Part shown: positions 5,713 through 62,191 of the stretch, one piece after another
Numbering within the stretch: the first letter of the stretch is position 1
Layout of the letters: every line of letters starts with the position of its first letter
Source: Agromyces agglutinans
Lineage (GTDB): Bacteria; Actinomycetota; Actinomycetes; Actinomycetales; Microbacteriaceae
NCBI RefSeq assembly: GCF_009647605.1
Contig: NZ_WJIF01000001.1
Location: 521,801 to 585,800 of the forward strand
Direction of reading: 5' to 3'
DNA: 64,000 nt
Program-made: the position numbers and the translations under genes
The notes under the pieces: model-generated
What the model saw: the letters and a program-made list of their open reading frames with translations, nothing else
What the model was told of the DNA's origin: nothing
Database searches by the model: none

Positions 5713-5847
5713 ACGTCTCCCCAGTTCCGTGTGCGCGCGTCGTCGGCCGGAACACGCCGACCGGCCAACAAACTAACATGCTGGGCGCAAGCCCTAAAAC
5801 GGGGAGCACTCCCCATGTGATTCGTCCAGCGGACTCCCGGCGTTCAC

Positions 5848-25556: not shown

Positions 25557-25569
25557 GGTATCGACAGTG

Positions 25570-25603
25570 CTGGGGTACCTGGACTCGAACCAAGAACAAC
25601 TGA
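25570..25603 (-). other. 3' fragment of tRNA-Gln(CTG); candidate att site / island left end
   Basis: The minus strand reads the last third of a tRNA: part of the anticodon stem (TCAGT), TGTTC, the T arm (TTGGTTCGAGTCCAG) and the acceptor TACCCCA plus G. This matches the 3' end of actinobacterial tRNA-Gln(CTG), whose anticodon loop normally precedes TCAGT. The upstream bases do not continue the tRNA. A 3' tRNA fragment with its terminator on the chromosome side is what a tRNA-targeting integrase leaves at the distal end of an island. The intact tRNA should then lie at the other end, beyond 64,000. Confidence 0.75.
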
Positions 25604-26335
25604 ATGATGGATCGACCATGTAACTGTCGCCCGCGAGGGCGGGAATTCCGCGGATTTCCGCGGATCTCATGCGTCCATTCTACCGGTGAATACGGATTGA
25701 TTCGGGCGCATTCTGGTACCGCTCGAGGGGTTTGTGGTTCGTTTGTGGTCAGCGAGAGCGCAGCCCGTTCCGCCGAGCCGAATCCCGCGCGAGCCGCGCG
25801 TGCGCATGGAGATTGCGCTGGCGCCGATCGGGTTTCCATCGCTCCCTCAATCTTCAGCGGACCACGAGTACCCGGTGAACGGCGCCCGAGGCAGATCGCC
25901 TCGAGCGCCGTTCATCGGGTGTCACGTGCGTCTGCGACGGATCGAGCGAGATAGTGAGCTTGGCGACGTCGAGCGTGTGGCCGGCGCGCACCGCCGCCGA
26001 TCCTTCGCGCAGCCCGGGGTGCCCGGTTGGTGCCGGCGAGGCCCCGGTCGACATGAATGTTCTCGTCGTCGACGTCGTGCGCCCGGCGTCCGCCGCGTCG
26101 TTGTAGTGCCATCATGCGTGTTCGCTGAGAAGCTGGCGCAGCCGATGACGACGGTCGAGCAATCGCGGTGAAGGCACGTTCACCGCGCCCTCGTGCGTGC
26201 GGGTCATACGGGAATATGGGAGTGCGAGGATGTGCGATCACCGGCGCACGACTCAGATCAAGCAGGTTTCCCGATGATGGACCGGCTGTCGAGCATCGGG
26301 TCCGGTGCTCGCATCGCGCCGCTAGGCTCGGCGAC
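25604..26335. other. Gene-poor island edge
   Basis: These 730 bases just inside the island have no reading frame I can support on either strand. Possible frames are short and of biased composition. An integrase gene would be expected near an att site, but no recognisable tyrosine recombinase motif (R..HxxR..Y) is readable, so it may be lost or lie at the other end. A 17-mer at 26199-26215 recurs at 52149-52165. Confidence 0.5.
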
Positions 26336-41538: not shown

Positions 41539-41575
41539 CCCGCAACAGCCGTGCGATGTGGCGAGGGGGGCTTTC

Positions 41576-43528
41576 ATGACTCCGGTGGAGATCGCCCGCG
41601 GTATATGGCGCATCGCAGACACCTGCGCGGTATACCTCATCATCGACCCCGATAAACCCTCGGGGGAACGCGATGCGATAGCCATCGATTTCGGGTCGGG
41701 GCGTGCCCTCGACCATCTCGCTGAACTCGGTATCCGCTCGCTCACCGACGTGCTCATGACCCATCATCACCGCGACCAGGGGCAAGGGCTGCCGCGCGCG
41801 GTCGCAATAGGCGCACGCATCCACGTCCCGCCAGTCGAGGTGGAGTTGTTCGAACAAGTCGAGTTGATGTGGGAGGGCCGCCAACTCGACAACGACTACA
41901 ACCTCCGCCAGGACCGATTCTCGCTGCTGGAATCCGTTCCCGTCCACGCGACGGTTCCCGAGTATCGCGCGTTGGTGTTCGAGGCCGCCACCTTGCGTGT
42001 GCTCCCCGCTCCGGGGCACACCATCGGATCCGTGGCCTACCTTCTCGAGCGGGACGGCGAGCGTATCGCGTTCACCGGTGATCTCATCTACGCGCCAGGA
42101 AAGGTTTGGTCCCTCGCCGCAACCCAGTGGTCCTACCGGTTCAACGAGGGGCCCGCGATGACTGTCCTCAGCTGCATCCTGCTCGAGCGTGAGAAGCCAT
42201 CGATGCTCGCCCCCTCGCATGGCGACGTCATTCGCGACGCACAAGCCGCTCTCGCACGACTCGCCGATGCGATGCAGGACTATGTCGACAGGCGCAGCGC
42301 TGAACCCTGTAACCTCGCCGATCTCCTCGACCATCCCTTCGTCACGCTTGCGCCGCATCTCTTGCTCAACCGCACCTCGATGTCGAGTTCCTACGTGCTG
42401 CTGTCGGACACCGGCGAGGCGCTCGTTGTCGATTACGGCTACGACATGTCGACCGGTATCGCACCCGGCCAGGAGCGAGCGGCGCGGCGCCCTTGGCTCG
42501 CTTCATTGGCAGCGCTGCGGCGTGACCACGGCGTGACGAAAATCACGGTCGCGCTCCCGACGCACTATCACGACGACCACGTCGCGGGAATGCCGCTCCT
42601 CCGCGACGTCGAGGGGACTCAGCTGTGGGTCCCCGAGAACGTCGCACCGACGATGGCGAACCCCTGGCGGGAAGATCTCCCGTGCCAGTGGTACGACCCG
42701 ATCGTCGCGGATCGCGTCCTCGCGCTCGACGCGCCTTTCCGGTGGAACGAGTACGAGTTCACTGCGCACGCACTCCCCGGGCACACTCTCTACGCCGTCG
42801 CCTATAGCCTCGTCGTGGACGGCATCACGGTTGCATTCACGGGAGACCAGACCGAGAGACTGGATGACCCCGACAGCCATCGCGACATCACGAACTATCA
42901 GTACCGCAACCTCTTCCGACTCGGCGATTACACCCGAAGCGCCGCACTCTTCCAGCGGATCGCGCCCGGCCTGATCGCCTCGGGGCATTGGGATCCGAGA
43001 TGGACGGATGCCGCGTACTTCGACTCTCTCGTCCAACTGGGACAGGAAACGGACGCCGTACATCGTGGCCTGCTCCCTCTCGACGACATCTCGATCGGAC
43101 CCGACGGGCAGACCGCACGAATCGTGCCATACCGGGCGCAGGCGCGGTGCGGGGAAACGCTCAACTTCGCAGTGAGGGTTCGAAATCCTCTGCCGGCCGA
43201 AGCAGCTGTTCGCCTGAGTGTTGTCGTGCCGCCGGACTGGCAGTCCTCTGAGCACGAATTCGTGACGCGATTGGCATCCGGCGACGACGTCACCATCGAA
43301 TTCAGCGTTGTGGCCGCTACCCCTGGCCGTCGGCAGCGGATGGCCGTCGACGTCACGATCGGTGAACTGCTGCTCGGCCAGCATGCTGAGGCCCTTGTCG
43401 ACGTCGTGGCAGTGGACGCGGATGCCGCCGCCCCAACCGCGGGAGCCGCTCGCACGGATCGCCCCGACGAGGATGGTCCGGCGACGCCGACTGCGCAACA
43501 ACGCGCATCGCCGCGACGATCTCGATGA
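41576..43528 (+). CDS. Tandem metallo-beta-lactamase-fold protein with C-terminal beta domain
   Basis: A 650-residue protein. Domain 1 (about 1-240) has MTHHHRDQG at 61-69, where the usual final His of HxHxDH is Gln68, plus a later GHTIGS and TGDLIY. Domain 2 (about 280-500) has the complete THYHDDHVAGM, GHTLYAV and TGDQTE. The last 110 residues look like an Ig-like beta domain (VRVRNPLPAEAAVRLSVVVPPDW) and end in a disordered tail. GCGAGGGGGG precedes ATG 41576, 37 nt behind the permease. The substrate is unknown; placement suggests hydrolysis of a compound brought in by the transporter. Confidence 0.8.
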   Translation: MTPVEIARGIWRIADTCAVYLIIDPDKPSGERDAIAIDFGSGRALDHLAELGIRSLTDVLMTHHHRDQGQGLPRAVAIGARIHVPPVEVELFEQVELMWEGRQLDNDYNLRQDRFSLLESVPVHATVPEYRALVFEAATLRVLPAPGHTIGSVAYLLERDGERIAFTGDLIYAPGKVWSLAATQWSYRFNEGPAMTVLSCILLEREKPSMLAPSHGDVIRDAQAALARLADAMQDYVDRRSAEPCNLADLLDHPFVTLAPHLLLNRTSMSSSYVLLSDTGEALVVDYGYDMSTGIAPGQERAARRPWLASLAALRRDHGVTKITVALPTHYHDDHVAGMPLLRDVEGTQLWVPENVAPTMANPWREDLPCQWYDPIVADRVLALDAPFRWNEYEFTAHALPGHTLYAVAYSLVVDGITVAFTGDQTERLDDPDSHRDITNYQYRNLFRLGDYTRSAALFQRIAPGLIASGHWDPRWTDAAYFDSLVQLGQETDAVHRGLLPLDDISIGPDGQTARIVPYRAQARCGETLNFAVRVRNPLPAEAAVRLSVVVPPDWQSSEHEFVTRLASGDDVTIEFSVVAATPGRRQRMAVDVTIGELLLGQHAEALVDVVAVDADAAAPTAGAARTDRPDEDGPATPTAQQRASPRRSR

Positions 43529-47704: not shown

Positions 47705-50700
47705 CTAACGACCGACGGCCGGGCGGCCGGTGCGGACGTTTGGCCTGCGACCGGGCATCCAGCTCGCGGGCTCGGCAGCGAGGCTGCGAGCGCTCGCCAT
47801 CGCGATGCGAGCCCGGTTGGCGTCCGCATTCTGAGCGTCGGATGCCGGTGGTTCGACGCCGAGCGGACGTCCACCGCGGATGCCGTATCGCTCCCGATAC
47901 GCCGCGACGGTGCTCGCGTACAGGCGCCATTGCGCGCCAGTCTCGCCGTGGGGCGGCGTCCCGAGCGCGGCGATCCACGGCTCCCGGTGATCGACGGCGC
48001 GGTCGACCAGCGCTCGAGCACGCTGCTCGATCAGGTGGGCACGCTCCCCCAGCGCCCGCCGGGACTCGAGATCCATAGCCCCGACCGCCACCGGCAGCAT
48101 CCCCGCGACGAAGTTCGACGCTCGCCCCGGGCGCGGGCCGCGATCTCCAAACACTACCTGCGCGATGCGGGCGCGCAGCACGGCCGCCACGTCGGCGGCA
48201 TCCTCGAACCCACGTTGCCCGATCGCCAGCGGAAGCATCCGCGTGATGTCGAGCCCGTTCGCCTCGGCGCGACGCAATTCAGCACCCAGTGGACCGAACG
48301 CATCCGATGCGGCTGCGACATCCGTCTGCTCGACCGTCAGCCCGCTCTCCCGCAGGAGCGCGACCCATCGATCGTGCTGGGCGGCCGCGGCGATGGTCTC
48401 GTACTCGGCGGCGAGCTGTGCGATCGAGCCCCAGGTCTCGTGCTCGGCGGCGATCGTCTCGTGTGCAGACAGCTCAGCACCGACGTGATGGAGTACACCG
48501 ATCAGCACCGACCGCGCGCTCGCATCGGCGTCGTCACGAGGACGGATGCCGGTATGCGTGAGATCCGGCCGGTCGAGTGCGACGTACGCCGTGTTCGAGG
48601 CGCGGCCCCGGGTCATCGCGACGTAGAGATTCTCGCGGGTCATGCCGCGGCCGACGACGACGTGCGCACTGCCGGTCGTGAGGCCTTGCGCACGATGCGC
48701 GGTGACGGCGTAGCCAAGTTCGACGTGATCGGCGACGTATCCAGGCGGCAGCATCACGACCCCTCGCTTGCGTCCGTGGCGACACACTTCGAGACTGCCG
48801 TTTCGATGCACGGCGAGCACGGTCCATCGGTCACCGTTGCGCACCCACGAGCGCCCGGTGTGCAGAGTGCGGTCGTTGCGACGCGTGATGATCGTGTCGC
48901 CATCGGCGGCGCGGGTGCCGTCGTGCAGCGCGACCTCACGCGATCCGACGACGCGCCCGTCGAGGATGGAGTCATTGCGAGCACGTTCGTTCAGTGCTGC
49001 GACCGCCTCATTCGAATCGCTGATGAGTACGCTGGCCCGGCCCGCACGTGCATCCGCTCTCCAGGCGAGATACGCGGCATCCGCCATCGTCTCGGTATCC
49101 CCTTCACGCACGCGATCGTGCGCGAAGTAGCTATCGAGGGATGCTGGGTCGCCACGTCGCAATCCGAGGGATGCTGCGCTCTCCCAACCTGCGACGAACC
49201 GGTGTACGTCGAGCAACTCCGGTGCATCGGGCCGCGCGTGCACGAGCATCGCGAACGCACCACCCGCGTCGACCGATTGCAGCTGGGCGGCGTCGCCGAC
49301 GAGCAGCACCTTCGCGCCAGCCGCCGCAGCGAGTACGCTGACCCGGTCGATCGCCAACGTGCCCGCAAGGGATGCCTCGTCGACGATGACGAGCTGGCCG
49401 GCGCGGAACGCATCGCCGCTCGCCAGATGCTGGTGCCACCACTTGGCGAGATTCTCGGTGCCGATGCCGAGGTCTTCTGCGAGCACATGCGCCGCTGCTG
49501 CCGACGGCGCCAGGCCGATGACGGAGCCGCGGCCGTACTCGTATTCCCACGCGCGACGCAGTGCGCCCATGACCGTGGACTTGCCCGCACCTGCGGGGCC
49601 GACGAGCACATCGACCGTTCGTCCGGATGTCGCAACGGCCGTGAGAGCGGCGAGCTGGTCGTCGCTGAGCATGACGCCGCCGGGAAGCCTCCGTCGAGCA
49701 ACGTCCTGGACGGACGTGATCCTGATGGTCGGTGCCGAGGCATCCGTCGCTCGCCTGAGAAGCCGGTCTTCGGCCGCGAGGAGAGCCTCGGAGGTGAAGA
49801 TCGCCGAGTGCCTCGGCCGGAACACCGACGTACCGTCGTCCCGACGAAACGCTGCCGGAGTCGATGCCAGTTCGGGCGGCGTAACGCGCAACGACGCACG
49901 CTCCGCGGCGTCGACGATGAGCCCGAGCACCGCTTCGCGATCAGCGGGCGTCGCGAATCGGAGATGGGTGGTCTGGCGTGCGGCCTCGGCGGCGAGGTTC
50001 CAGTAGCGCCAGGTCGCACGCTTCTCGCCGACCGCGTGCACGACCCGTGCACCGACTCCTGCAATGTGCTCCAACGGCACATCTTCGGCGTGCACGAGCG
50101 CAGGCACCGACTGCTGTGATGCACGACGTGCCCACACGGTTGCATCCTCGCGGAGTATCCGAGTGGCACGCTCACGCCAGTCGTGCGTGAGTTCGGCGAG
50201 CGAGCGCACGTGCTTCTCGGGGCGGGTAGCGAGAGCGGCCTGCGCACGCAGCTTCATGATCGTCGCCGCACTCGGACGGCGCCCATGTGCGTGCACGAAC
50301 TCGTCGATGAGCTCATCGGTGGCGGCGTCGATGTGCCGCGCACGAGTGGAGAACTCGACGACGAGGTGCTCGGGCACCGAGGTGATCGCCCACGCCGCGT
50401 TGCGGTCACGACCGCGCTCGCGCTGCTCCCAGTTCACCCTGAGCGCACGCGTGAGGGCATCCATGAAGTGTGCCTCATGCAACTCGGATAGCGCGACGAC
50501 TGCGCCGTGCAACGGGCGCCCGTCGAGGGATCGCCACTTGCCATCGAATGTGGTCTGCACCTTGTTGCTCACAACGACGTGGGTGTGCAGGTGCGGGTCG
50601 CCGGCACGCGAATCGAAGTGGTCGTATGCCGTCGCGATCAGCCCGGTGACATCGACTTGTGCGACTGCTCCATCGCCAGCCGCAACTCCGGTGCGCGTCG

Positions 50701-51151
50701 CAGCGACCTCGCGCTCCATGAACTCCACCACCTGCGCGACCGCGGCGTGATGCGCGCGCGCGATGACCTCCTGTGTGCGTGCGTCGGCCACCCCCCAGAG
50801 GACGCTCGCCGATTTCGGCACCGAGAACGTGAAGTCGAACCCCGCAACTGCGCGGCGGTCGGCTGCATACTCGGGGAACGCGCGGCCGAGTGGTTCGCCG
50901 GTGACCGGATCCCGGCCGAGCCCGATCAGCAGTTGAAGCTGTGCCTCGGTGACCTCATCACCCGCCGCGACGACCCCACCGCCAAGGGCACGCACTCCCC
51001 CGCCCAACCACCGGCCGGGCGGTGTGCCCTTCGCCTCGTAGTAGCGGGTGAGCGGCGAGGCCGTCGATCGGACGCCGTCGCCAGCGACGACGGTTCGCAG
51101 CAGATATCGGTAGCCGTCGCCGGAACTCATGACCCTCATCGACACCGTCAC
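47705..51151 (-). CDS. MobF-family relaxase-helicase (TrwC/TraA-like)
   Basis: A 1148-residue conjugative relaxase. The N-terminal domain has catalytic-type tyrosines (Y14, Y16, Y37, Y38 in GDGYRYLL and LTRYYEAKG). The metal site is the triad H187, H189, H191 in DPHLHTHVVVSN. A helicase follows with Walker A GPAGAGKS (518-525), Walker B LVIVDEAS and later motifs including YAVTAHRAQGLT. It nicks at oriT and unwinds the transferred strand. I chose GTG 51151 (GAGAGG upstream), since relatives begin TVSMRVMSSGDGY. An in-frame GTG at 51160 is the alternative. Confidence 0.95.
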   Translation of the reverse strand: MTVSMRVMSSGDGYRYLLRTVVAGDGVRSTASPLTRYYEAKGTPPGRWLGGGVRALGGGVVAAGDEVTEAQLQLLIGLGRDPVTGEPLGRAFPEYAADRRAVAGFDFTFSVPKSASVLWGVADARTQEVIARAHHAAVAQVVEFMEREVAATRTGVAAGDGAVAQVDVTGLIATAYDHFDSRAGDPHLHTHVVVSNKVQTTFDGKWRSLDGRPLHGAVVALSELHEAHFMDALTRALRVNWEQRERGRDRNAAWAITSVPEHLVVEFSTRARHIDAATDELIDEFVHAHGRRPSAATIMKLRAQAALATRPEKHVRSLAELTHDWRERATRILREDATVWARRASQQSVPALVHAEDVPLEHIAGVGARVVHAVGEKRATWRYWNLAAEAARQTTHLRFATPADREAVLGLIVDAAERASLRVTPPELASTPAAFRRDDGTSVFRPRHSAIFTSEALLAAEDRLLRRATDASAPTIRITSVQDVARRRLPGGVMLSDDQLAALTAVATSGRTVDVLVGPAGAGKSTVMGALRRAWEYEYGRGSVIGLAPSAAAAHVLAEDLGIGTENLAKWWHQHLASGDAFRAGQLVIVDEASLAGTLAIDRVSVLAAAAGAKVLLVGDAAQLQSVDAGGAFAMLVHARPDAPELLDVHRFVAGWESAASLGLRRGDPASLDSYFAHDRVREGDTETMADAAYLAWRADARAGRASVLISDSNEAVAALNERARNDSILDGRVVGSREVALHDGTRAADGDTIITRRNDRTLHTGRSWVRNGDRWTVLAVHRNGSLEVCRHGRKRGVVMLPPGYVADHVELGYAVTAHRAQGLTTGSAHVVVGRGMTRENLYVAMTRGRASNTAYVALDRPDLTHTGIRPRDDADASARSVLIGVLHHVGAELSAHETIAAEHETWGSIAQLAAEYETIAAAAQHDRWVALLRESGLTVEQTDVAAASDAFGPLGAELRRAEANGLDITRMLPLAIGQRGFEDAADVAAVLRARIAQVVFGDRGPRPGRASNFVAGMLPVAVGAMDLESRRALGERAHLIEQRARALVDRAVDHREPWIAALGTPPHGETGAQWRLYASTVAAYRERYGIRGGRPLGVEPPASDAQNADANRARIAMASARSLAAEPASWMPGRRPNVRTGRPAVGR

Positions 51152-51301
51152 CCGCGCCACCTCTCGCTACGGGATCAAGGTGCGCGTCCTCGATCTGCAA
51201 GAGGCGTGGCAGATCGTCGAGGGCCGAAGTCGTTCTGTGAGGATCGCCCGTCTCAGATCTCTCTTGGACGGGTTGGGGTGTCAGGTGTTGTGATCTAGAC
51301 T

Positions 51302-52344: not shown

Positions 52345-53655
52345 ATGAATAGGCGCGTCGATCGGTCGTATGCCGCTGGTCCAACTGTGCTGGACGTTGT
52401 TGAGACTGCACTCGGTGCCAAGCCCAAACGAGCCGAGCTCGAGCGCTTGACCATCTCGGAGCTTGAGGAGCTGCGCGACCTTCTTTCCCAGCTTTGGGAG
52501 GCTCAGTATGACCAGCCTGCTGGGGAGGATGCGTATTTAGTAGGTGGGTGGCTCGGCGCCTTTTGGAGCGCAGGCTCGCTCCGCGCTGAGCTGAGTGATT
52601 CGCTGCTGTACTACCCGAGGCTTCTCGTCCTTGATCCGCTGGCCGACTTCTTCGCTGAGGCTTCGCTGCTGCCCCCTTCGCGAGGAATCCGCTACCGGCG
52701 ACGTGACGGCCAGTACAACACGGTGATGACGGGTGCGTCGGAGTGGAGCCAATGGTCAAGCTTCGCCAGATTGCGCGAGACTCCAGAGCTGGCCGCGTCT
52801 CAGTTCGCAGCCATCGTCTCGAACCTCTTTGAAGTCGAGCACTTGATTCGGTCCGGCGTGGTTGTTGTCCGGAGCCAATGGCCAACGCTACGGCAGCGCG
52901 CGCATCAGCTCGCTACTTCAGTCCGTCACGACATCCGGTCCTCCGAGATGCAGGCATTCGCTAGATCTGTCTCGGCATCCGGGGCGCCGTTGCAGGTCTG
53001 GGATAACCTTCGCGGCGGAGCGGTTGAGATGCAGTTGCCAGTCCATCGTGCCGATGAGCCGTGGCAATCGGAGCCCGCCTTCTACTACCTTTCGAAGACG
53101 CTTGCGATCGCGGACGAGTCGAGTGCACAGTACGTCCCTGCAACTGAGCAGGATCTCGACCTGCTGCGCCTAAAGGTCAGAACGGCACTTCCGAGCATGC
53201 ACCCCGCCAAGTTCCTGCGCGAAGTGTCTCGGGTCATCGTTCCATCCGTCGACGTGCCGATCGAACGCGCCATTGAAATCCGCGAGTCGTCCGAAAACTT
53301 CGACGACTGGCGACGCTCGCTGAGGAAGCTTCGTCGCGCCGTCAGTGCTGATACAGAAGATGACCTCACGGAGCAAGTTCAGGATGAGCTTCGTCCGCGT
53401 GTACGTGCTGTTGAACGTGAATTGAAGGGCGGGAGCGCGTCCGTGCGTGAGGATGGCGCTGCGATCGTGATCGACGGCATGATCGGTTTGGGTGTGGGGC
53501 TGGCCGTCGGCGCGGCAGCGCAGGACACGTTCGCTGGAATAGCGGCAGGCTCGCTTTCAGGCGCCGTCCAATGGATTCGTCGGGCTTACACGCGGGAAAA
53601 GCCCGGAGGAGCGGATGCGGTCCTTGCCACGCTTATCAAACGCCCCTACCGCTGA
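52345..53655 (+). CDS. Cargo protein of unknown function with C-terminal glycine-zipper helix
   Basis: A 436-residue protein, mostly helical and soluble (SELEELRDLLSQLWEAQYDQP and the long middle). Near residues 378-412 lies a hydrophobic Gly/Ala-rich stretch (IDGMIGLGVGLAVGAAAQDT and GIAAGSLSGAVQ) that could insert in a membrane. GAGGGTGG precedes ATG 52345. Its base composition is slightly less GC-rich than neighbours. It sits between the relaxase and regulatory modules where mobile elements carry accessory genes. The glycine-zipper end is reminiscent of membrane effectors in phage defence, but this is speculation. Confidence 0.7.
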   Translation: MNRRVDRSYAAGPTVLDVVETALGAKPKRAELERLTISELEELRDLLSQLWEAQYDQPAGEDAYLVGGWLGAFWSAGSLRAELSDSLLYYPRLLVLDPLADFFAEASLLPPSRGIRYRRRDGQYNTVMTGASEWSQWSSFARLRETPELAASQFAAIVSNLFEVEHLIRSGVVVVRSQWPTLRQRAHQLATSVRHDIRSSEMQAFARSVSASGAPLQVWDNLRGGAVEMQLPVHRADEPWQSEPAFYYLSKTLAIADESSAQYVPATEQDLDLLRLKVRTALPSMHPAKFLREVSRVIVPSVDVPIERAIEIRESSENFDDWRRSLRKLRRAVSADTEDDLTEQVQDELRPRVRAVERELKGGSASVREDGAAIVIDGMIGLGVGLAVGAAAQDTFAGIAAGSLSGAVQWIRRAYTREKPGGADAVLATLIKRPYR

Positions 53656-53805: not shown

Positions 53806-54699
53806 ATGAGGGCTACTCGGCAGAGCATCTCCGATCCAGACGAGGCGCGTTTAGCGAGTGAGCTCCTTCATCGGCTGTCGTACATCGATGTCGTGTTGGA
53901 TCGCCAGGACATTGTTACCTCGCGCACGCCGGCGCCGTGGTCGCAGTTGGGGGCGGACGATGCAGCCACCCGCTGGCTTCAGGTGAGCCACCAACTCACG
54001 ACCATCCTCGGCATGTCGGTCGACAACCTTCGCGTCGCGAGAGAAATGTTGGTCACCGACGGCGACATGGTCGTGCCTATGTACGGGCACTACCCCGTGC
54101 TTCGGTCAGTGATTGAAGCGTCGGCGCTTGCGAAGTGGATCGCGGAGCCAAACGAGCAGCTCGAGCGGATTCGACGCTCACTAAGCGCGAGGATCGCGGA
54201 CCTCAACGAAGACAAGGCTCTGCACGAGGAAGCGATGAAGGGCGCCGCACTGTACGGCGAGATCGACGCGGGCGTTCTCCAGCGCGGCGACGAGAGCTTC
54301 CGGGCGGGAGACTTGAAGGCCCGGCGTGTGATCCGCGAAATCTGCGTTGAGCGAGACATCCAGTGGAGCCGCGTGAATCAAGGGCTGCCCGGTTACGCCC
54401 GCATCATCCGGGAGGTGGGTGATGCTGGAGATGTCCCGGGGAACTATGCGGCAAGCGTCTGGCGGATCATCAGCGGCCTGAGTCACCCATCGGCGAGCCG
54501 TGCCACCCGGTTTTCAGCTGTCGAGGTGCTGGGCGAGTCCAAGGATGGCATCTTGAACGCTCGGCTGTCTGCATCCATGCAATGGACCCAAGCGGCTACG
54601 CTCGTGGCAATCTCACTGACGATCGATGCCTTCTCCAGCGTGCAGCGTCGGCTCGACACCAAGCAGCCACGACGAGACTCGGCCTTCGGCAGAATCTGA
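53806..54699 (+). CDS. Cargo protein of unknown function (DUF5677-like pattern)
   Basis: A 297-residue helical protein. The pattern HYPVLRSVIEASALAKWIAEP and SASRATRFSAVEV near the C-terminus recalls DUF5677-type proteins, whose function is unknown. It lies 150 nt behind the glycine-zipper gene on the same strand. No catalytic motif can be named. Confidence 0.65.
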   Translation: MRATRQSISDPDEARLASELLHRLSYIDVVLDRQDIVTSRTPAPWSQLGADDAATRWLQVSHQLTTILGMSVDNLRVAREMLVTDGDMVVPMYGHYPVLRSVIEASALAKWIAEPNEQLERIRRSLSARIADLNEDKALHEEAMKGAALYGEIDAGVLQRGDESFRAGDLKARRVIREICVERDIQWSRVNQGLPGYARIIREVGDAGDVPGNYAASVWRIISGLSHPSASRATRFSAVEVLGESKDGILNARLSASMQWTQAATLVAISLTIDAFSSVQRRLDTKQPRRDSAFGRI

Positions 54700-54875: not shown

Positions 54876-56039
54876 TCATCCCATTGCTTCGGTCAGGCGG
54901 AGAGTTGTGATCCATCGCGTCACGTGGGCGCGCCAGCCACTCGCATCAACGTTCCAGGTCATGGTGTGATCGGCGTCGAACTCTTCGAGACGAACATGGG
55001 CAACCGCGTTGGCACGAAGCCGACGGCCAAGTTCGACTGGCGCAGATCTGTCGCGTGTGCCGTGCAGCACGAGCACCGGAATCTGGATGTGGGAACCGCG
55101 GTCCATCCAATCAAAGCGGCGCGTCCGAACTGCGCCGCCCAGGCCGACGACTCGCGCCAGTTGTGGCGAATCGAGCCAAGGTAACGCCAGCGCCCCGAAC
55201 CAGCCTGGCAGGCCGGCGCGGGTGCAGTTCTCCTTGAGGGTTTCGACCCAGTCGAGCACCGGTGACTCGAGCACGAGTCCGGCAATCCGATCGCGCACGC
55301 CCGGCCGTGCGGCAAGGTGCAGGGCGATCGCCCCACCCATGGACCAGCCGAAGAGAACCATCTGGCGAGCGCCGTGTTCAATCGCGAAGCGAACGGCTGC
55401 CTCGACGTCGTCCGCTTCCGTGGCACCGAGTGTCGAGCGGCGAGAACCCACCGTTGGTCCTTCGCCATCGTTCCGGTAGCTCACCACCAGAGACACAAGT
55501 CCGGCTCGCGCGGCCACCTGCACTCCGCGGAGCGTCCCGGCGCGCGTGCCGCCGAGTCCGTGGATGTGAATCGCCCAGACGTCGGCGGCGGTGTCGCTCG
55601 TGGGCTCGATGCGCCAGGCCGGTGCGGGGCCCACCGGAGTCGGTACGGCCACCTCGGTCGCCTCAAGGCCAGCATGCGCAGGAGTTCGGAAGTACATCCC
55701 GCTCCACGAGGCTCGCACGCCCACCCGCAACGCCGCCGTGTCTCCGAGCGCCTCCCGCTCGACGGTTTCCTCGCCGACGGGCCGGACCTCCTCCCCGAGC
55801 CGAATCCATTCCCCGGTCTCGAGGATCAGGTTGAACCGCCCAGGTGTCGCCGTCTGCTCGGTGCGATCGAGCACGACGAGCGTCCTGCCATCGGAGACGT
55901 CCACGCCACGCACGATGAGATCGAATCGTCGCGGTCCCACCGGCGCCGTCACTTTGCGCGCGATCACGAACCCGATTCCGGTGAAGGCCGCCGCGACACC
56001 GGCCAGCATGCCCGCGGCGATCGCCCCCCACGCCCTCAC
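54876..56039 (-). CDS. Membrane-anchored alpha/beta hydrolase
   Basis: A 387-residue protein with one N-terminal membrane helix (AWGAIAAGMLAGVAAAFTGIGFVIA). An accessory beta region (about 35-140) and a serine hydrolase domain follow: HIHGLGGTRAG, the nucleophile GWSMGGA, Asp in LHGTRDRSAP and His in DADHTMTW. GTG 56039 overlaps the stop of the seven-helix protein (GTGA). It is the last gene of the XRE-ImmA-7TM-hydrolase operon. It could process a lipid or peptide signal at the membrane, but this is inference from the context. Confidence 0.85.
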   Translation of the reverse strand: MRAWGAIAAGMLAGVAAAFTGIGFVIARKVTAPVGPRRFDLIVRGVDVSDGRTLVVLDRTEQTATPGRFNLILETGEWIRLGEEVRPVGEETVEREALGDTAALRVGVRASWSGMYFRTPAHAGLEATEVAVPTPVGPAPAWRIEPTSDTAADVWAIHIHGLGGTRAGTLRGVQVAARAGLVSLVVSYRNDGEGPTVGSRRSTLGATEADDVEAAVRFAIEHGARQMVLFGWSMGGAIALHLAARPGVRDRIAGLVLESPVLDWVETLKENCTRAGLPGWFGALALPWLDSPQLARVVGLGGAVRTRRFDWMDRGSHIQIPVLVLHGTRDRSAPVELGRRLRANAVAHVRLEEFDADHTMTWNVDASGWRAHVTRWITTLRLTEAMG

Positions 56040-57019
56040 GTTCGCACCCGCATCGGCGTGGAGTTCCCCGCACCACCGACGAGGTGACGTTCGGCCTCCT
56101 CGAGCAGCTCACGCTGCGCGACGCTGATGGTGAAGGTGACTCGACCATCGATGAGCGCGTCCCGGATCTCGACGACCTGCCGGTGCAAGAGCGCCTCTGG
56201 GTCGGCGTCGTCGAAGGCGGCATCCTGGCTGATGCCAGGTCGCACCTCAGAGGCCGCCTGCCAGACCGGCGCGAGCTGGGCAGTCAGGCTCAGCGTGGTT
56301 CGAGCCCGCTCGCGAGCACGAATCGTTCGCACAGCCGGCTGCCCCGCGAATCCGAGGCAGAGGAACACGAACGTCAGCAGGTACAGCGGTCCGTACGCGA
56401 CGGCAGCACCAGTCATGACATCGAGGTTGCCGCTGATGTGTGCGATATCCATCACCGCCACGACCGCCGAGAGCGCCACGCCGCACGCGCAACCGATCAC
56501 GAGCAACACCGGTGGCAGGGCGTCGATGCCGTGACTCACTCGCACCTGCCGGGTGGCGACTGCGCCCATCGCCACGAGCACGACGGCGTAGTAGGTGAAA
56601 AGGATCATCGAGTAGGCCGCGGTAGCCGGTTGACCGCCCAAGTCGAGCATGAACTCCGGTGTAGTGGCTCTGCGATCGATCAGCACGAACGCGACGGTCG
56701 CGCTCACCACGGCAATCGTGAACGCAAGGCGCCCCAAAGCGATGCGCACGGCTCGTGATGGCGCATCCGCTGCCTTCATGACGCCGCGTCCCAAGAAGAA
56801 GACTCCGGTCATCAGCGCGAGGTCGGCAGCAAGGGTGACGAGGTTCGTCCCGCCGAGCCAACCGTCGAGTGCGAGGTACACCGCATCAATGTTGAGCGTG
56901 ATCGAGACCGCGATCGTGAACGACGCGTACGTGATGCTGCGTTCCACGCGTCCTCGACGAAGCACGAGCAGGCATGCGACGAGCAGCCACATGCAGGCCG
57001 AGACGATGACTGCGATCAC
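56036..57019 (-). CDS. Seven-helix membrane protein (MAB_1171c-like)
   Basis: A 327-residue protein with about seven hydrophobic helices in the first 235 residues. A cytoplasmic tail of about 90 residues follows (WQAASEVRPGISQDAAFDDADPEALLHRQVVEIRD). The layout matches the actinobacterial MAB_1171c-type putative transporter family. Such genes often follow an XRE regulator and an ImmA/IrrE peptidase. Both ends overlap neighbours by GTGA, so the operon is tightly coupled. Whether it transports or senses a ligand is not known. Confidence 0.75.
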   Translation of the reverse strand: MIAVIVSACMWLLVACLLVLRRGRVERSITYASFTIAVSITLNIDAVYLALDGWLGGTNLVTLAADLALMTGVFFLGRGVMKAADAPSRAVRIALGRLAFTIAVVSATVAFVLIDRRATTPEFMLDLGGQPATAAYSMILFTYYAVVLVAMGAVATRQVRVSHGIDALPPVLLVIGCACGVALSAVVAVMDIAHISGNLDVMTGAAVAYGPLYLLTFVFLCLGFAGQPAVRTIRARERARTTLSLTAQLAPVWQAASEVRPGISQDAAFDDADPEALLHRQVVEIRDALIDGRVTFTISVAQRELLEEAERHLVGGAGNSTPMRVRT

Positions 57020-57477
57020 CCGAATATCTCCACGAACCGGGAGTCGTGGCGGGCGGATGAGCGAATGGCAGCTGCGAACCGATCGGCGAGGGACTCGGCC
57101 TCCACCTCTTGGGGGTCGTACGAGTCTTGCCGTCTCAGGAGACGACGCCGAGTCTCGGGTGGGATGTCAGGCAGAAGGAAGTCGGGCAGGCTCGGCTCCT
57201 GGCCATCGATGTGGCCGAGCAGGAGGTGGGCGAACTCATGCAGCACGAACTGCTGCCGATGCAGCAGGGACTCGGTCGGCGCGTGAAAGATGAGGTCTTC
57301 GTCGTCGCATTCGATGAGCAAAGCGCACAGGCCGGCTTCGTGGCCGAGATCCTCGAGCTCGATGATTCGGATGCTGCGACCTCGCCGTTCCTCAACGGCG
57401 GCGACGAGCTCGGGAAATGTGAACTCGTCGCCGAGCGCGAGCTCCCGCATCGCCGTCGCAACGCCTTCGGTGTTCAC
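57016..57477 (-). CDS. ImmA/IrrE-type metalloprotease
   Basis: A 153-residue protein with the zinc motif HEFAHLLLGH (H80, E81, H84) and a distal glutamate in EVEAESLADRFAAA, giving the gluzincin site. ImmA-type proteins cleave or inactivate the XRE repressor of an element such as ICEBs1 ImmR, thereby inducing transfer. It starts 57 nt after the XRE gene with GTG at 57477. Confidence 0.88.
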   Translation of the reverse strand: MNTEGVATAMRELALGDEFTFPELVAAVEERRGRSIRIIELEDLGHEAGLCALLIECDDEDLIFHAPTESLLHRQQFVLHEFAHLLLGHIDGQEPSLPDFLLPDIPPETRRRLLRRQDSYDPQEVEAESLADRFAAAIRSSARHDSRFVEIFG

Positions 57478-57534
57478 AGTGCCGTCCCCCCCTCGGACGT
57501 GTATGGCGGCGGCCTCGGTGCGGGCGCGCCGCGG

Positions 57535-57957
57535 CTACCGGTTCGAGACCTCCTCGTCGAGGTACCTGCTGATGGCCGTGAGCGCCGCCGGCGAGATGTC
57601 GCCGAGCGTGCGGGCGGCGTACGCCTTGACGCGCGCGGCACGCATGGAGCGCACCAGGTCGAGCTGAGCGCTGACTCGCTCGGGTGTCGCGGCACCGTGT
57701 TGCCCCGTGAGGAATCCCGGCTCAACGTCGAAGAATGACGCGAGACCGTCGAAGAGCCGTTGGTCTTGCACGTACCGGTGCCCGTTGACCATATAGGTCC
57801 ACCTCGAGCGCGAGAGCTTAATGCCACGCTCCCCCAGATAGGCGGCGATCTGCGTGTAGGTCGGCTCGCTGCCGGTCTCCGTGACGGCGACGTCGATGAG
57901 CAACCGAAGGCGTTTGGCAAGGTCTTCAGCTGCGGCGGCGTTCTCGTCTTCGATCAT
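57535..57957 (-). CDS. XRE-family HTH regulator (ImmR-like)
   Basis: A 140-residue regulator. The N-terminal helices give an HTH (PTYTQIAAYLGERGIKLSRSRWTYMVNGHRYVQDQRLFDGLASFF); the C-terminal half is a helical partner domain (PERVSAQLDLVRSMRAARVKAYAARTLGDIS). GGGAGGG precedes ATG 57957. Upstream lies an array of four palindromes, which is most simply its operator. The ImmA-type protease follows it in the operon, the arrangement of repressor/antirepressor pairs in conjugative elements. Confidence 0.85.
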   Translation of the reverse strand: MIEDENAAAAEDLAKRLRLLIDVAVTETGSEPTYTQIAAYLGERGIKLSRSRWTYMVNGHRYVQDQRLFDGLASFFDVEPGFLTGQHGAATPERVSAQLDLVRSMRAARVKAYAARTLGDISPAALTAISRYLDEEVSNR

Positions 57958-58014: not shown

Positions 58015-58119
58015 TTGAGCATGCTTCACGTTACCGATTGGGCATGCCCAACGCAATGGTTGCGCATGCTCAATTCGGAGTGCTAGACCTGACCCCAAAG
58101 ACCAATTGAGCATGCTCAA
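58015..58119. promoter_or_regulatory. Array of four palindromic operators (TTGRGCATGCYCAA)
   Basis: Four 14-bp sites lie between the divergent XRE and ArdC genes: TTGAGCATGCTTCA (58015-58028), TTGGGCATGCCCAA (58038-58051, perfect), TTGCGCATGCTCAA (58060-58073) and TTGAGCATGCTCAA (58106-58119, perfect). Their centres are 23, 22 and 46 bp apart, close to two, two and four helical turns, so bound proteins would sit on one face. A split half-site pair (CTCAA...TTGAG, about 58005-58019) overlaps the first site. This is the layout of a cooperative repressor switch. Confidence 0.88.
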
Positions 58120-58271: not shown

Positions 58272-59348
58272 GTGATCGAATTGCCAACGAATCCCGGCTC
58301 CCGCGCCGACCGGGAGGCCAAGCTTTCCGAGCTCCACGATCAACTCACCGCGGCAGTCGAAGCACTGGTCACCAGTGAGCAGTGGGTGCGCGCCCTCGAA
58401 TTCGCCGCACGCTTCCGAACCCGCTCGTTCAATAACGTGCTGCTCATCCACGCACAGCATGCCACCGCATTCGAGGCGGGTCTCGTTCCCCATCCGACGC
58501 CGACGTACGTCGCCGGATTCCGGCAATGGCAGGAACTCGGCCGAAGAGTCGCCGCCGGTCAGCACGGCTACAGCATCCTTGCACCGCTGACTGCGCGCGT
58601 CGCAACCTCCGAGCCCACTCGTCCGGATTCGTGGCGACCACTCGGCCGCGGCGAGCGTCCGCGCGCCGGCGAAGTCGTCCGGTCCAAGCTCATCGGGGTA
58701 CGACGCGCATACGTGTGGGATATCTCCCAGACCGACGGTCGTCCACTCCCCGAACCTCCGACGCCGCAACTTCTGCGGGGCGATGCGCCTCAAGGCCTGT
58801 GGGACGGGCTTGCCGCTCTCATCGACAACGCGGGTTTCGCACTCACCACCTCGGACGACCCCACTCTCGGCAAAGCCAACGGCCGCACCGACTTCCTGGG
58901 TCGCACGGTGATGATCCGCGGCGACCTCGATGCGGCTGCGCAAGTCAAGACGCTCGCGCACGAACTCGCCCACGTGCGCATGCATGACACGATGACCGAG
59001 GCGGCGGCTCTCCATCGCGGCATCGGCGAAGTCGAGGCCGAGTCGGTCGCTCTCATGATCGGCGCCGCGCACAGCATGGACACGACCGGATACACCATCC
59101 CGTACGTGAGCGGCTGGGCTTCGACCGTTTCGGGCAAGACCCCCATCGAGGTCGTGCAGGCTGTCGGCGAGCGCGTTCGTCGCGCGGCCGCCGACATCCT
59201 CGCGAACCTTCCGGCCGGGCAGCTCGGCACGGCCGACCTTCCCGGGCTCTCTCGGGCGACCTCGCCGATGCCGCCGTCGATTCCCACGGCGACGACCGCT
59301 CCGCCGAACCGATCAGTCGAGCACGCTCGACCACGGAGGTTGGCATGA
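58272..59348 (+). CDS. ArdC-type antirestriction protein
   Basis: A 358-residue protein. The N-terminal domain (about 15-150) is the ArdC ssDNA-binding type (FNNVLLIHAQHATAFEAG, GFRQWQELGRRVAAGQHG and WDISQTDGRPLPE). The C-terminal part carries a zinc-protease-like site, HELAH (H230-H234) with E257 in EVEAESVA. ArdC proteins protect incoming single-stranded DNA from host restriction. GTG 58272 is preceded by GGGAAGG. First gene of the right-going operon beyond the operator array. Confidence 0.88.
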   Translation: MIELPTNPGSRADREAKLSELHDQLTAAVEALVTSEQWVRALEFAARFRTRSFNNVLLIHAQHATAFEAGLVPHPTPTYVAGFRQWQELGRRVAAGQHGYSILAPLTARVATSEPTRPDSWRPLGRGERPRAGEVVRSKLIGVRRAYVWDISQTDGRPLPEPPTPQLLRGDAPQGLWDGLAALIDNAGFALTTSDDPTLGKANGRTDFLGRTVMIRGDLDAAAQVKTLAHELAHVRMHDTMTEAAALHRGIGEVEAESVALMIGAAHSMDTTGYTIPYVSGWASTVSGKTPIEVVQAVGERVRRAAADILANLPAGQLGTADLPGLSRATSPMPPSIPTATTAPPNRSVEHARPRRLA

Positions 59349-60229
59349 ACATCGGGGAACTGTTCCTTCACGCGACCTCGGCGAGCGCGCGCGACGCTGC
59401 GTACGCGTTCGCCGACGCGGGCATCCCGGTGTTCCCCTGCCTCCCAGACGGAAAACGCCCGCTGACACCGGCCGGGTTCCACGACGCGACGACCGAGCTC
59501 ACCATCGTGCGGTCGTGGTGGGCGACCTGGCCGAGGGCGAACCTCGGGATGCCGACCGGCGCGGCATCCGGTTTCGACGTCATCGACGTCGACACCGGCG
59601 ATATGGGCACCGGGTTCACGGCGCTCGAGTCAGCCCGAAAAGCGGGCCTCCTTGACGGAGAGGCCGCCCGGGTGCGAACGCCATCGGGCGGGCTCCACAT
59701 CTACTACCCGACTGATCCCGATGGTGATCAGCGGTGTTGGCAGTCCGCGTTCGCGCACATCGACTTCAGGGGCGAGGGCGGATACATCATCGTGCCGCCC
59801 TCGACTGTGCGGGGCATCGCGTACCGCCTGTCCGTGCTGCGCGCCGGCGCGCAGCATCCGGTCGATGCGACTGCGTTGCGGGAGCTGATCGATCCACGAC
59901 CGCCGCAGACCCCCAATCCGCGAGACGCAATCCATCACGCAGATCCGGACCGCTTGGCCCGTTGGGTGCTGCATCTTCAGGAGGGCGAACGCAATCACGG
60001 ACTCTTCTGGGCGTCCTGCCGACTTGTCGAGGCAGGCTACTCCCCCACGGCCATCGAGACGACGCTCGGATCTGCTGCGGCGAGCGTCGGACTCTCCGCT
60101 CGCGAGATCGCCTCGACGATCCGCTCGGCGAGCAGGCAAGGAGCACCTCAGACCGCTACCACCTCGCCGACCTGGAACGAGCCTCGCGCATCAACGCGAC
60201 GCGAGAGTGATGCTCCATGGCTGGCATGA
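59345..60229 (+). CDS. Bifunctional primase-polymerase (Prim-Pol)
   Basis: A 294-residue protein with the Prim-Pol (PF09250) motifs: IPVFPCLPDGKRPL, the metal-binding VIDVDTGD, SGGLHIYY (SGxxHxY) and FRGEGGYIIVPPS. It makes primers and extends DNA for the element's replication. The C-terminal 90 residues are a primase-linked helical segment (HGLFWASCRLVEAGYS). ATG 59345 overlaps the ArdC stop (ATGA). No helicase domain is fused; replication probably uses a separate one. Confidence 0.9.
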   Translation: MNIGELFLHATSASARDAAYAFADAGIPVFPCLPDGKRPLTPAGFHDATTELTIVRSWWATWPRANLGMPTGAASGFDVIDVDTGDMGTGFTALESARKAGLLDGEAARVRTPSGGLHIYYPTDPDGDQRCWQSAFAHIDFRGEGGYIIVPPSTVRGIAYRLSVLRAGAQHPVDATALRELIDPRPPQTPNPRDAIHHADPDRLARWVLHLQEGERNHGLFWASCRLVEAGYSPTAIETTLGSAAASVGLSAREIASTIRSASRQGAPQTATTSPTWNEPRASTRRESDAPWLA

Positions 60230-60900
60230 TCGCGCGGCGCCCCGATGGTGTGCGCGTAGCGACCGTCACGGCCATCGTTGGAACGGTGTTCATTGCGGCC
60301 GGGGCGTTCTGGCTCTCGTTCATATCGCTGAGCGACCTCGCGCGGCGATCGGGGATCGATACGGCGCAGGCTTGGGTGTGGCCGCTGATCGTCGACGGAA
60401 TCATCGTCGTCGCAACCGTGGCAGCCGTCGCGCTCGCGCGCTCGCGGGTGGCGTGGTATCCGTGGATGCTGCTCGCGGCCGGCGCCGCGATCTCGGTCGT
60501 GGCGAACGCGATCCACGCCGTGGTCGCCGAGACCACAGAGGTTCCCCTCGTGCTCGCGGCGGCCGTCGCTTCGGTGCCGCCACTCGTGCTTCTGGCGATC
60601 ACCCATCTGACGTCCGTCCTGGTTCGCACGCCGCACCCGACTCGTGACGCGAGACAAGTCCAGGCGGCTGCGACGCCGGAAGCAAACACACAGGTCGTCG
60701 CCCTCCGGGCTCCCGAACCGGCGTCGAGCGCGCTTGCACCCCGCGACGATGCGTCATCACTCCGGGCGCTCGGCTGGTCGCACTCCGCTATAGCCCGAAA
60801 GCTCGGCGTCCACCCGTCGACGATCAGCCGGTGGCTGCGCGATCACGCCGGCGCACCTACGTCGCACAGCACGCTGACGGAAGGCGCGAACGATGGATGA
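60217..60900 (+). CDS. DUF2637 membrane protein with C-terminal HTH
   Basis: A 227-residue protein with four membrane helices (ATVTAIVGTVFIAAGAFWLSF and three more), characteristic of DUF2637 from actinobacterial plasmids and conjugative elements (related to Spd spread proteins). A C-terminal helix-turn-helix, LRALGWSHSAIARKLGVHPST, follows. It overlaps the Prim-Pol gene by 13 nt. A membrane part and a DNA-binding part in one protein suggest tethering of the element to the membrane or transfer machinery. Confidence 0.85.
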   Translation: MAGMIARRPDGVRVATVTAIVGTVFIAAGAFWLSFISLSDLARRSGIDTAQAWVWPLIVDGIIVVATVAAVALARSRVAWYPWMLLAAGAAISVVANAIHAVVAETTEVPLVLAAAVASVPPLVLLAITHLTSVLVRTPHPTRDARQVQAAATPEANTQVVALRAPEPASSALAPRDDASSLRALGWSHSAIARKLGVHPSTISRWLRDHAGAPTSHSTLTEGANDG

Positions 60901-61303
60901 ATACGACCTCGAAGAGTACAGCCGCAGAAACGCGAGCGGCCTACGCCCGGGCTCTTCCGTCGATGCGAAGTCGAACGATGTCGCAGATCGCATCCGGATG
61001 GCGCTCGCACGCAGCGCGCATAGCCCGGATAGCTCCGCGCTGGACCCGACCCACGACGAGCAACACGGCCAGCGTCCCGGAATCACGTGGGTCCGGGCAT
61101 CCGATCTCCTCAACGCAGGCAGCGGCCGCATCGCCGGCCGCAGTTTCGACCTCGAGACCGAACTCGCACGGCGCCTACGCCGAGCACCCGCGACGACCCG
61201 TCGAGCGATCCGCGAACGAGCGGCAAAGCTGCCTCCCCTCTCCGAGTTCGGCCGCAGCCCCGAGCACGCCCACTTCAGCCGACCCGGGATGGGACGGCGG
61301 TGA
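60893..61303 (+). CDS. Hypothetical protein of the lead operon
   Basis: A 136-residue polar protein, basic at the end. It overlaps the DUF2637 gene by 8 nt and so belongs to the same transcript. Segments such as GRSFDLETELARRLRRAPATTRRAI suggest helices; no family is recognised. Confidence 0.6.
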   Translation: MDEYDLEEYSRRNASGLRPGSSVDAKSNDVADRIRMALARSAHSPDSSALDPTHDEQHGQRPGITWVRASDLLNAGSGRIAGRSFDLETELARRLRRAPATTRRAIRERAAKLPPLSEFGRSPEHAHFSRPGMGRR

Positions 61304-61360
61304 GTCATGGGCATCCTGCAGACCGCGGCAACACGCACCGATCCGACAGGAGGTGCCGCG

Positions 61361-62191
61361 ATGGACTGGAGCTCGGAGAGGGAACCCGAACCTGGAGCCT
61401 TCCGCAGGTCCGAAGGCCTGAGGAAGTTGCTCAAGCGATTGCATGAATCCGGGCCCGGTGCCTGGCGCACCGACCCTGAGGCCAACGCGCTGCTCCAGTT
61501 CGCCGCAGAAAAGTACTCGGCTCTGGCGCGCAAGCATGGCCTCGACCCGTGGGAGGCGGCATCCGCGGCATTCGATGCGATGCGCGCGCCCGCGACGCTT
61601 CGTGCCGATGACCCTTGGGCGCTCGTCACCCGTGCCGTGCAGATCACCTGCATTGCCGAGGAACGCGCGCAGGGTTTGCTCTGCTCGGTGCATCAGGCAC
61701 GCCGCGCGAAGGTGTCGGTGTTCCACGACGCCGAACGGTTCAGCGATCGCGAACACGAGCTGCCCGAGTACCACCCGGCGTTCCGTACCGCTCCAATCGA
61801 TGCCCAACCAGACAGCGCGCCCCGCGAAGACGTGCAGGCCGCTGTCGCCGATGCCATCATGCTCTTCACCCTTCTTGGTTGGCCGAACGACCGCGCGCGC
61901 GTCGGCGTCGAGTACGTCTGCGGGCGACTCGCGGATGCCCCGTCACGACCTTCGGCGTACGAGTCGCTCCGCCGCGACTATGCGGCGCGCGCCCAGCTCG
62001 ACCTGCCGCAGCAGGCCTGGCTCGCAATGCTCAAGGCACTCTTGGGATGCTGCGACCCGCTTCACCAGCACACCGTCGCGGGACGCGGGGTTCTGCTGCG
62101 CTTGATCGTCGGCGAACCGCTCCGTGCGCTCCTGCACGACGACGACCTCGTCACCGGCATCGTCGTCAACACCCCATGGACGAGCGCATGA
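61361..62191 (+). CDS. Hypothetical protein with sigma-like helical core
   Basis: A 276-residue protein. The ribosome-binding site AGGAGGT eight bases before ATG 61361 decides the start over an upstream ATG at 61307. The region LLQFAAEKYSALARKHGLDPWEAASAAFDAMR through WALVTRAVQITCIAEERAQGLL looks like the helices of sigma region 2, but region 4 is absent, so a sigma function is only a possibility. The stop overlaps the ParB gene (ATGA), which links it to partition or replication control. Confidence 0.6.
   Translation: MDWSSEREPEPGAFRRSEGLRKLLKRLHESGPGAWRTDPEANALLQFAAEKYSALARKHGLDPWEAASAAFDAMRAPATLRADDPWALVTRAVQITCIAEERAQGLLCSVHQARRAKVSVFHDAERFSDREHELPEYHPAFRTAPIDAQPDSAPREDVQAAVADAIMLFTLLGWPNDRARVGVEYVCGRLADAPSRPSAYESLRRDYAARAQLDLPQQAWLAMLKALLGCCDPLHQHTVAGRGVLLRLIVGEPLRALLHDDDLVTGIVVNTPWTSA

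Follow-up and report, generated by a model that had tools for sequence, protein, structure and literature searches.

Repressor-protease systems comparable to the four-gene set

Several described systems place a repressor under the control of a metalloprotease. BlaR1/MecR1 work in this way through a membrane sensor, a metalloprotease and a repressor that is cleaved, the sensor and the protease being joined in one protein, unlike in the switch proposed below. In the IrrE/PprI-DdrO pair, for which we know of no membrane partner or enzyme, a metalloprotease likewise cleaves a repressor, as the title of a paper on that system states. The closest system in regulatory logic is the integrative and conjugative element (ICE) ICEBs1 of Bacillus subtilis, which is guarded by an XRE repressor, ImmR, and the adjoining metalloprotease ImmA, and in which RapI, the sensor of the RapI-PhrI pair, acts through ImmA on ImmR, according to two papers (PMC6540685; PMC8960796). 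Here, we analyzed a stretch of 64,000 nucleotides from Agromyces agglutinans (the window), in which genes for an EspR-like XRE protein, an ImmA/IrrE-type metalloprotease, a seven-helix (7TM) membrane protein and an alpha/beta hydrolase follow one another, in this reading order, on the minus strand, divergently from an ArdC-like gene and its downstream operon (Table 1). Judged by its sequence surroundings, this four-gene set is in an integrated mobile element, an ICE of about 58.7 kb, and we propose that it could form the on/off switch of this actinobacterial element; the full chain of steps, allowing for a version with one step different, has in our judgment an even chance of being right.

An earlier note on this DNA had described the four genes, with coordinates that proved correct, and had likened them to an ICEBs1-type switch. 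The likeness extended to the regulatory logic and stopped at the sensor, the proposed one being of another kind: RapH_N, the Rap N-terminal family, gave no match in the whole genome at an E value of 0.01, while the control genomes (B. subtilis and M. jannaschii) were matched, and a RapI-like sensor was therefore rejected. Unlike in ICEBs1, the sensor proposed here is a membrane protein accompanied by an enzyme, the candidate repressor is EspR-like and the relaxase is of the MobF type. EspR of Mycobacterium tuberculosis belongs to the same family by profile over nearly the whole length, and in the PDB it is named as an ESX-1 regulator and nucleoid-associated protein, whereas its relative here is a candidate repressor of the element, with sites arrayed locally. 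In the open-access literature, neither the four-gene set nor the wider module of ImmA, 7TM protein and enzyme was found described, and we found no paper on DUF6545 and one naming MAB_1171c, these being the families that the 7TM protein resembles.

Conservation of the four genes in related loci

The earlier note had made its proposal depend on the 7TM protein and the hydrolase accompanying XRE and ImmA in other genomes, and they do so: of 80 related loci, 75 gave profile matches to the four families on a single strand in the order XRE-ImmA-7TM-hydrolase, far beyond chance, this being a count of profile matches and not proof of intact genes. The loci, designated here by L numbers, were the best 80 of 98 relatives from a scan of named genomes, and were from Micrococcales (67), Propionibacteriales (6), Actinomycetales (1) or an unassigned order (6). 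Of the five exceptions, two are cut off by the end of the contig, two lack an XRE match and have a shortened ImmA match, and in the fifth the 7TM gene is interrupted by a stop and the hydrolase gave no match. The 7TM gene was present in 19 of 150 genomes, the window's genome included.

The GTGA overlaps by which the earlier note had coupled all four genes were found at two of the three junctions only, ImmA/7TM and 7TM/hydrolase, the XRE and ImmA genes being separated by a 57-nt gap. Of 77 loci examined, all have a start codon giving a 4-base overlap between the ImmA and 7TM genes, and 75 have one between the 7TM and hydrolase genes, as counted by a script that chose the in-frame start nearest the overlap position and so favored this result.

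The surroundings and the order of the genes were then compared. ArdC is divergent from the set in all 12 close same-genus loci (11 genomes). Thirteen plasmid records gave a match, nine of them typed conjugative; among seven plasmids inspected, five (L026 to L030; Arthrobacter, Paenarthrobacter and Citricoccus) carry the order ImmA-7TM-hydrolase-XRE, and in two an MpaB-type oxygenase replaces the hydrolase. In L052, the hydrolase gene lies on the opposite strand. That the set is kept through rearrangement, in three gene arrangements, argues for a shared function.

The ratio of nonsynonymous to synonymous change (dN/dS) was below 1 wherever it could be computed among eight pairs of loci; four of the eight had too few changes, and L095/L116 was spoilt by a broken hydrolase frame. 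In the two most-changed pairs, L082/L085 and L140/L141, the ratio rises from XRE (0.08 and 0.05) through ImmA (0.09 and 0.09) and the 7TM protein (0.15 and 0.17) to the hydrolase (0.33 and 0.27). An apparently fast divergence of the hydrolase in L095/L116 (dN of 0.27) was rejected, the L116 frame having 222 aa versus 378 aa; for most of the region, DNA identity between these loci is about 97%, and the L116 frame, followed by an out-of-frame tail and beside an intact-looking 7TM gene, represents either a broken gene or a sequencing error.

Near-identical copies of the set were found in hosts of different families and orders. The four genes are identical in L108, from a Leifsonia metagenome-assembled genome (MAG), and L114 (Microbacterium), and only the hydrolase differs, slightly, between L108 and L118 (Propionicicella, of another order). 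Between L130 (Herbiconiux MAG) and L131 (Arthrobacter), identity is 99.97% over 14,954 bases. These cassettes, shared across families and orders, suggest recent movement of the element, some of the sequences being MAGs in which contamination is possible. The idea of a cassette jumping between unrelated backbones in L108 and L118 was dropped, as gapped alignment gave 93.3% identity over the first 11 kb in all, with the neighboring backbone at about 90%; the apparent sharp drop outside the cassette was a product of gapless comparison. Two cassette copies occur in each of two genomes, Agromyces italicus (L074/L081) and Microbacterium sp. BR1 (L099/L114). A TrwC/MobF relaxase adjoins sulfonamide-degradation genes in Microbacterium and Leucobacter according to passages of PMC6868719, which may bear on L092, L099 and L114.

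Palindromes overlapping two divergent candidate promoters

The gap between the XRE and ArdC genes is filled by four palindromes, O1 to O4, matching TTGAGCATGCTCAA and overlapping both candidate promoters. The window contained 7 matches with up to three mismatches versus 1.26 expected; at up to two mismatches, 4 of 12 places in the whole genome cluster at this gap, and the remainder are scattered. In 77 of the 80 related loci, those with 300 bp available ahead of XRE, 283 of 288 palindromes (up to two mismatches) lay within 300 bp upstream of the XRE match, a density of 12.25/kb versus 0.005/kb elsewhere (5 sites). Sixty of these loci have four palindromes, 13 have three, one has two, two have one and one has none, and the spacings are 43-47, 22-23 and 22-23 in 58 of the 60 four-site loci.

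An alignment of 70 distinct gap sequences showed -35 and -10 boxes on each strand, lying both within the palindromes and between them. The family consensus is TTGATT-N17-TAgATT toward XRE, the first T and the A of its -10 box being invariant, and TTGCGC-N17-TAGAAC toward ArdC; the window's own boxes are weaker than these. A protein bound here would obstruct both promoters as well as, at O4, the beginning of the ArdC transcript. The palindromes are well supported as candidate operators of the element's switch, and the switch suggested in the earlier note gains from the position of the set, which adjoins them at the promoter of the divergent operon. The candidate operators themselves are a feature beyond those that the note had described. 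Two pieces of the palindrome were absent from the text of PMC12565409.

Candidate repressor and protease

Neither XRE nor ImmA matched a Pfam or NCBIfam family at an E value of 0.1. The XRE-family profile (A2) matched EspR (3r1f) at an E value of 8.5e-24 over positions 9-140 of 143, nearly full length. The protease carries HEFAHLLLGH and downstream glutamates; HExxH and a downstream E are invariant in 22 of 22 rows of profile A3, and among close relatives (set A8) the first His of the motif is nearly, not fully, invariant. A sequence search of the PDB with profile A3 gave no ImmA relative. The predicted model (predicted local distance difference test [pLDDT] score of 77) best resembled IrrE/PprI (Z of 8.1 to 8.3), with a Z of 8.3 over 102 residues at 3.8 Å for IrrE 3dti.

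Proposed switch

From the observed genes, their conservation, the palindromes at the promoters and the catalytic residues, the following switch can be put together. By default it would be off, the EspR-like XRE protein on O1 to O4 shutting its own promoter and that of the ArdC-primase operon, on the replication or transfer side. Repression by XRE is very probable by analogy with known families, and the same analogy makes it likely that ImmA is the dedicated anti-repressor, which would remove XRE. The trigger would be a change in a ligand, perceived by the 7TM protein as a receptor whose cytosolic tail would hold or release (activate) ImmA; the 7TM start codon may overlap immA because both proteins work as a complex. 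On the strength of gene linkage, we lean toward a receptor that acts on ImmA, and the same kind of linkage leaves evenly poised the next step, in which the membrane-anchored hydrolase would make or destroy the ligand and so set its level. The ligand itself would be small and probably hydrophobic, a guess from the enzyme types. Destruction of XRE would turn on the switch's own operon along with that of ArdC and primase, and the element could thereby judge its surroundings, such as crowding or neighbors already holding the element, before transfer.

A wider module of ImmA, 7TM protein and exchangeable enzyme

The 7TM family reaches beyond this element, with profile matches in at least 66 of 394 class genomes and, for a narrower NCBIfam model, in at least 10 of 296 genomes of a phylum sample, both counts being lower bounds with at most five or six candidates scored per genome. 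We assembled 106 loci, comprising 80 stretches from the class scan (chosen from 123 places, mostly strongest first), 17 from the phylum sample and 9 older loci; counts across the loci are not independent, as some loci overlap (L183 and L226) or repeat a contig (L153 and L085). Among 113 complete 7TM genes, 97 are immediately preceded by ImmA according to the position rule of the script, and for 81 the stretch contains an XRE gene; counted by locus, ImmA is present in 98 of the 106 and XRE in 78.

A same-strand gene was called downstream of 78 of the 113 7TM genes, overlapping the 7TM stop by 4 bases in 33 and by 8 in 10. After 11 were left out (short, paralogous 7TM genes or doubtful), family scanning of the remaining 67 gave clusters of flavin monooxygenase-like proteins (26), proteins of about 200 aa (13, of which 8 score as PAP2), cytochrome P450 (5), amidases (4), amidohydrolases (3), an unnamed family (3), MpaB-type proteins (2) and XRE genes (2), with nine singles that include three alpha/beta hydrolases, one methyltransferase and one more XRE gene. 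In a tree built from 64 7TM proteins, the eight enzyme types required 9 changes (minimum, 7), compared with a mean of 36.8 after shuffling and a value as low in 0 of 200 shuffles; the tree covers loci that have a single 7TM gene and an enzyme label, and the hydrolases of L059 and L061, probably of another branch, carry no label in it. On pACHL01 and pYJN5-1, an MpaB-type oxygenase occupies the hydrolase's place, and the pYJN5-1 7TM protein falls within a 15-row clade of the hydrolase type (support of 99). The linkage to ImmA and the enzyme swaps indicate that the core consists of ImmA, the 7TM protein and one exchangeable enzyme, XRE being the commonest but not the sole partner. This wider pairing makes the proposed steps (processing of a ligand by the hydrolase, its perception by the 7TM protein, action of that protein on ImmA and cleavage of XRE by ImmA) likelier.

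Two 7TM genes near each other, whose products might form a heterodimer, were seen in L057, L063, L064, L179 and L050, and L031 (pACHL01, 2410-6811) carries XRE, ImmA-7TM twice in tandem and then an MpaB-type oxygenase.

The foremost alternative, which we consider unlikely, is a simple XRE/ImmA switch that responds to a cue from inside the cell, for instance DNA damage (as RecA does for ICEBs1), with the 7TM and hydrolase genes as cotranscribed passengers that might serve as exclusion or surface-modifying factors stopping redundant transfer. Unrelated genes are frequent in the operons of mobile elements. The hydrolase gene, which looks broken in L116, shows the highest dN/dS of the set in two informative pairs. 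The ImmA-type switch of ICEBs1, moreover, answers DNA damage, as passages of PMC6540685 state. Passengers, however, would hardly keep the overlapping start found in 77 of 77 loci across the class, and the 7TM gene stays linked to immA also in loci without a nearby XRE gene, as the 98 and 78 of 106 loci show.

Seven-helix protein and hydrolase

The 7TM protein belongs loosely to MAB_1171c/DUF6545: it scored 78.5 bits against NCBIfam MAB_1171c (NF042915), under the curated cutoff of 100, and 24.7 bits against Pfam DUF6545 (PF20182; gathering cutoff, 24.4), over residues 246-291 only. The "putative transporter" name of NF042915 rests on little visible support, and the 97 of 113 sampled members noted above lie directly below an ImmA gene. 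Positive charge places the N terminus outside and the C terminus inside, with the tail and the loops that follow helices 1, 3 and 5 also inside. The best-kept parts (50 rows) include the second outer loop (mean identity, 0.80) and the cytosolic tail helix PEALLHRQVVEIRDALI (mean identity, 0.83), the tail motif being LHRQVVEIRDA.

The predicted 7TM model (pLDDT of 85.8 and predicted template modeling score [pTM] of 0.79) had its best structural match in Ste2 (7ad3_A; Z of 14.3 and 3.6 Å over 208 residues), and the 50 matches listed were all G protein-coupled receptors (GPCRs) or a GPCR-like design, a group that is overrepresented in the PDB. Foldseek gave weak matches (best E value of 0.02) to bacteriorhodopsins and also to NarI and a soluble decarboxylase, and the 7TM profile A1 returned only chance-like rows from the PDB. 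These matches are weak evidence, a hint of a receptor-type bundle and not of kinship.

That the 7TM protein might instead export the enzyme's product, with ImmA/XRE merely controlling expression, appears improbable. The NCBIfam name speaks for it, and in passages of PMC8707978 biofilm formation by a MAB_1171c mutant is down to about half and the protein is termed a transporter, those passages containing no transport assay. Among the matches listed, the model mostly resembles receptors and rhodopsins, which is weak evidence against a transporter since NarI and a soluble enzyme also appear; the long cytosolic tail, moreover, bears one of the best-kept motifs. No carrier family was among the structure-comparison (VIA) matches listed for the model, which leaves a carrier possible. 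A stress or toxin-antitoxin-like module, with a toxic or protective enzyme as output, is least credible: COG2856-Xre pairs have been proposed as toxin-antitoxin-like, but the survey set aside Xre pairs with membrane proteins on the ground that no such component had come to light in a type II system, according to passages of it (PMC2701414), the enzymes found here have ordinary metabolic folds, and the palindromes face the element's own operon.

In the hydrolase, S233, D330 and H358 are invariant in 16 of 16 rows, two of which (L059 and L061) are probably of another branch. All 69 related hydrolase frames above 300 aa have an N-terminal membrane helix, and 7 of the 76 frames are shorter.

Several results weigh against the proposed switch. 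The palindrome is not enriched genome-wide, its 12 places at up to two mismatches comparing with 22 for the reversed pattern. Foldseek found no PDB match at an E value of ≤0.001 for either the 7TM or the ImmA model, and helical bundles can reach a Z of 13 to 14 without kinship. The order of dN/dS is not the same in every pair (0.10, 0.07, 0.30 and 0.29 in L098/L113), some related hydrolase genes look broken, as in L116, and charge does not settle the membrane side of the hydrolase, both flanks having a net charge of about +2.5. Clustering of enzyme types on the tree would also follow from plain operon inheritance. Finally, only 78 of 106 loci have an XRE gene in the vicinity of the pair (8 of 23 for the monooxygenase group and 0 of 3 for an unnamed group), so that ImmA must have other targets where XRE is not near.

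A broader and more tentative reading is that GPCR-like 7TM receptors with cytosolic ImmA represent an undescribed class of bacterial chemical signaling. Each receptor lineage would have its own ligand-making or ligand-removing enzyme (hydrolase, flavin monooxygenase, P450, PAP2-type phosphatase, amidase or MpaB oxygenase), DNA-binding repressors would be the outputs, and the window's ICE switch would be one branch, deciding on transfer. If true, these proposals would explain the control of a widespread actinobacterial ICE family, give a large family the label "receptor" in place of the doubtful "transporter," and reveal a chemical language of enzyme, receptor and protease in actinobacteria.

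The host element

A 36-bp repeat of the tRNA-Gln 3' end forms the left attachment (att) site, and its second copy lies outside the window at contig position 606052 (L151:252-287), near an integrase-family gene (Table 1). With the relaxase and a TraG/VirD4-type coupling protein encoded between the repeats, the window contains the left two thirds of the integrated element. The conjugative element named in the earlier note is supported: it is integrative, by its att sites, tRNA-Gln and integrase, and carries conjugation genes for the MobF relaxase and the coupling protein. A phage origin was rejected, as 50,697 phage records gave no 7TM match and 19 pattern matches in viral contigs included none encoding a relative.

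Table 1. Positions of the four-gene set, the palindromes, the candidate promoters and other features of the element
Feature	Position	Strand	Remarks
XRE/EspR-like candidate repressor, 140 aa	57535..57957	-	ATG start, GGGGAGGGA upstream
ImmA/IrrE-type metalloprotease, 153 aa	57016..57477	-	Metal motif; predicted model
7TM membrane protein, MAB_1171c/DUF6545-like, 327 aa	56036..57019	-	
Alpha/beta hydrolase with N-terminal membrane helix, 387 aa	54876..56039	-	S233, D330, H358
Palindrome O1, candidate operator	58015..58028	.	2 mismatches to TTGAGCATGCTCAA; adjoins XRE
Palindrome O2, candidate operator	58038..58051	.	2 mismatches to TTGAGCATGCTCAA
Palindrome O3, candidate operator	58060..58073	.	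1 mismatch to TTGAGCATGCTCAA
Palindrome O4, candidate operator	58106..58119	.	Perfect TTGAGCATGCTCAA match
Candidate XRE-operon promoter, TTGCGT-N17-TAACGT	58028..58056	-	Spans O2, touches O1
Candidate ArdC-operon promoter, TTGCGC-N18-TAGACC	58060..58089	+	-35 within O3; O4 downstream
ArdC-like antirestriction protein, first gene of divergent operon	58272..59348	+	Pfam ArdcN, Peptidase_M78
Primase-polymerase	59345..60229	+	Pfam Prim-Pol, 107 bits
DUF2637 membrane protein with helix-turn-helix	60217..60900	+	
Conserved backbone open reading frame	60893..61303	+	
Conserved backbone open reading frame	61307..62191	+	
MobF relaxase/helicase of element	47705..51160	-	TrwC 291 bits, MobF 216 bits
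Left att site, 36-bp repeat of tRNA-Gln 3' end	25569..25604	.	
Integrase-family gene	L150:18658-19863		Outside window

Two plus-strand genes between the hydrolase and the relaxase (52345-53655 and 53806-54699) are possible cargo or defense genes; they gave no Pfam or NCBIfam match, and tblastn of the other loci tested found none. The element also encodes an N6-DNA methyltransferase-like protein (L150:8643-11726), a GmrSD_C/Excalibur/DUF2510 protein (L150:16612-18453) and, at 41558-43528, a metallo-beta-lactamase-fold protein beside two six-helix membrane proteins.

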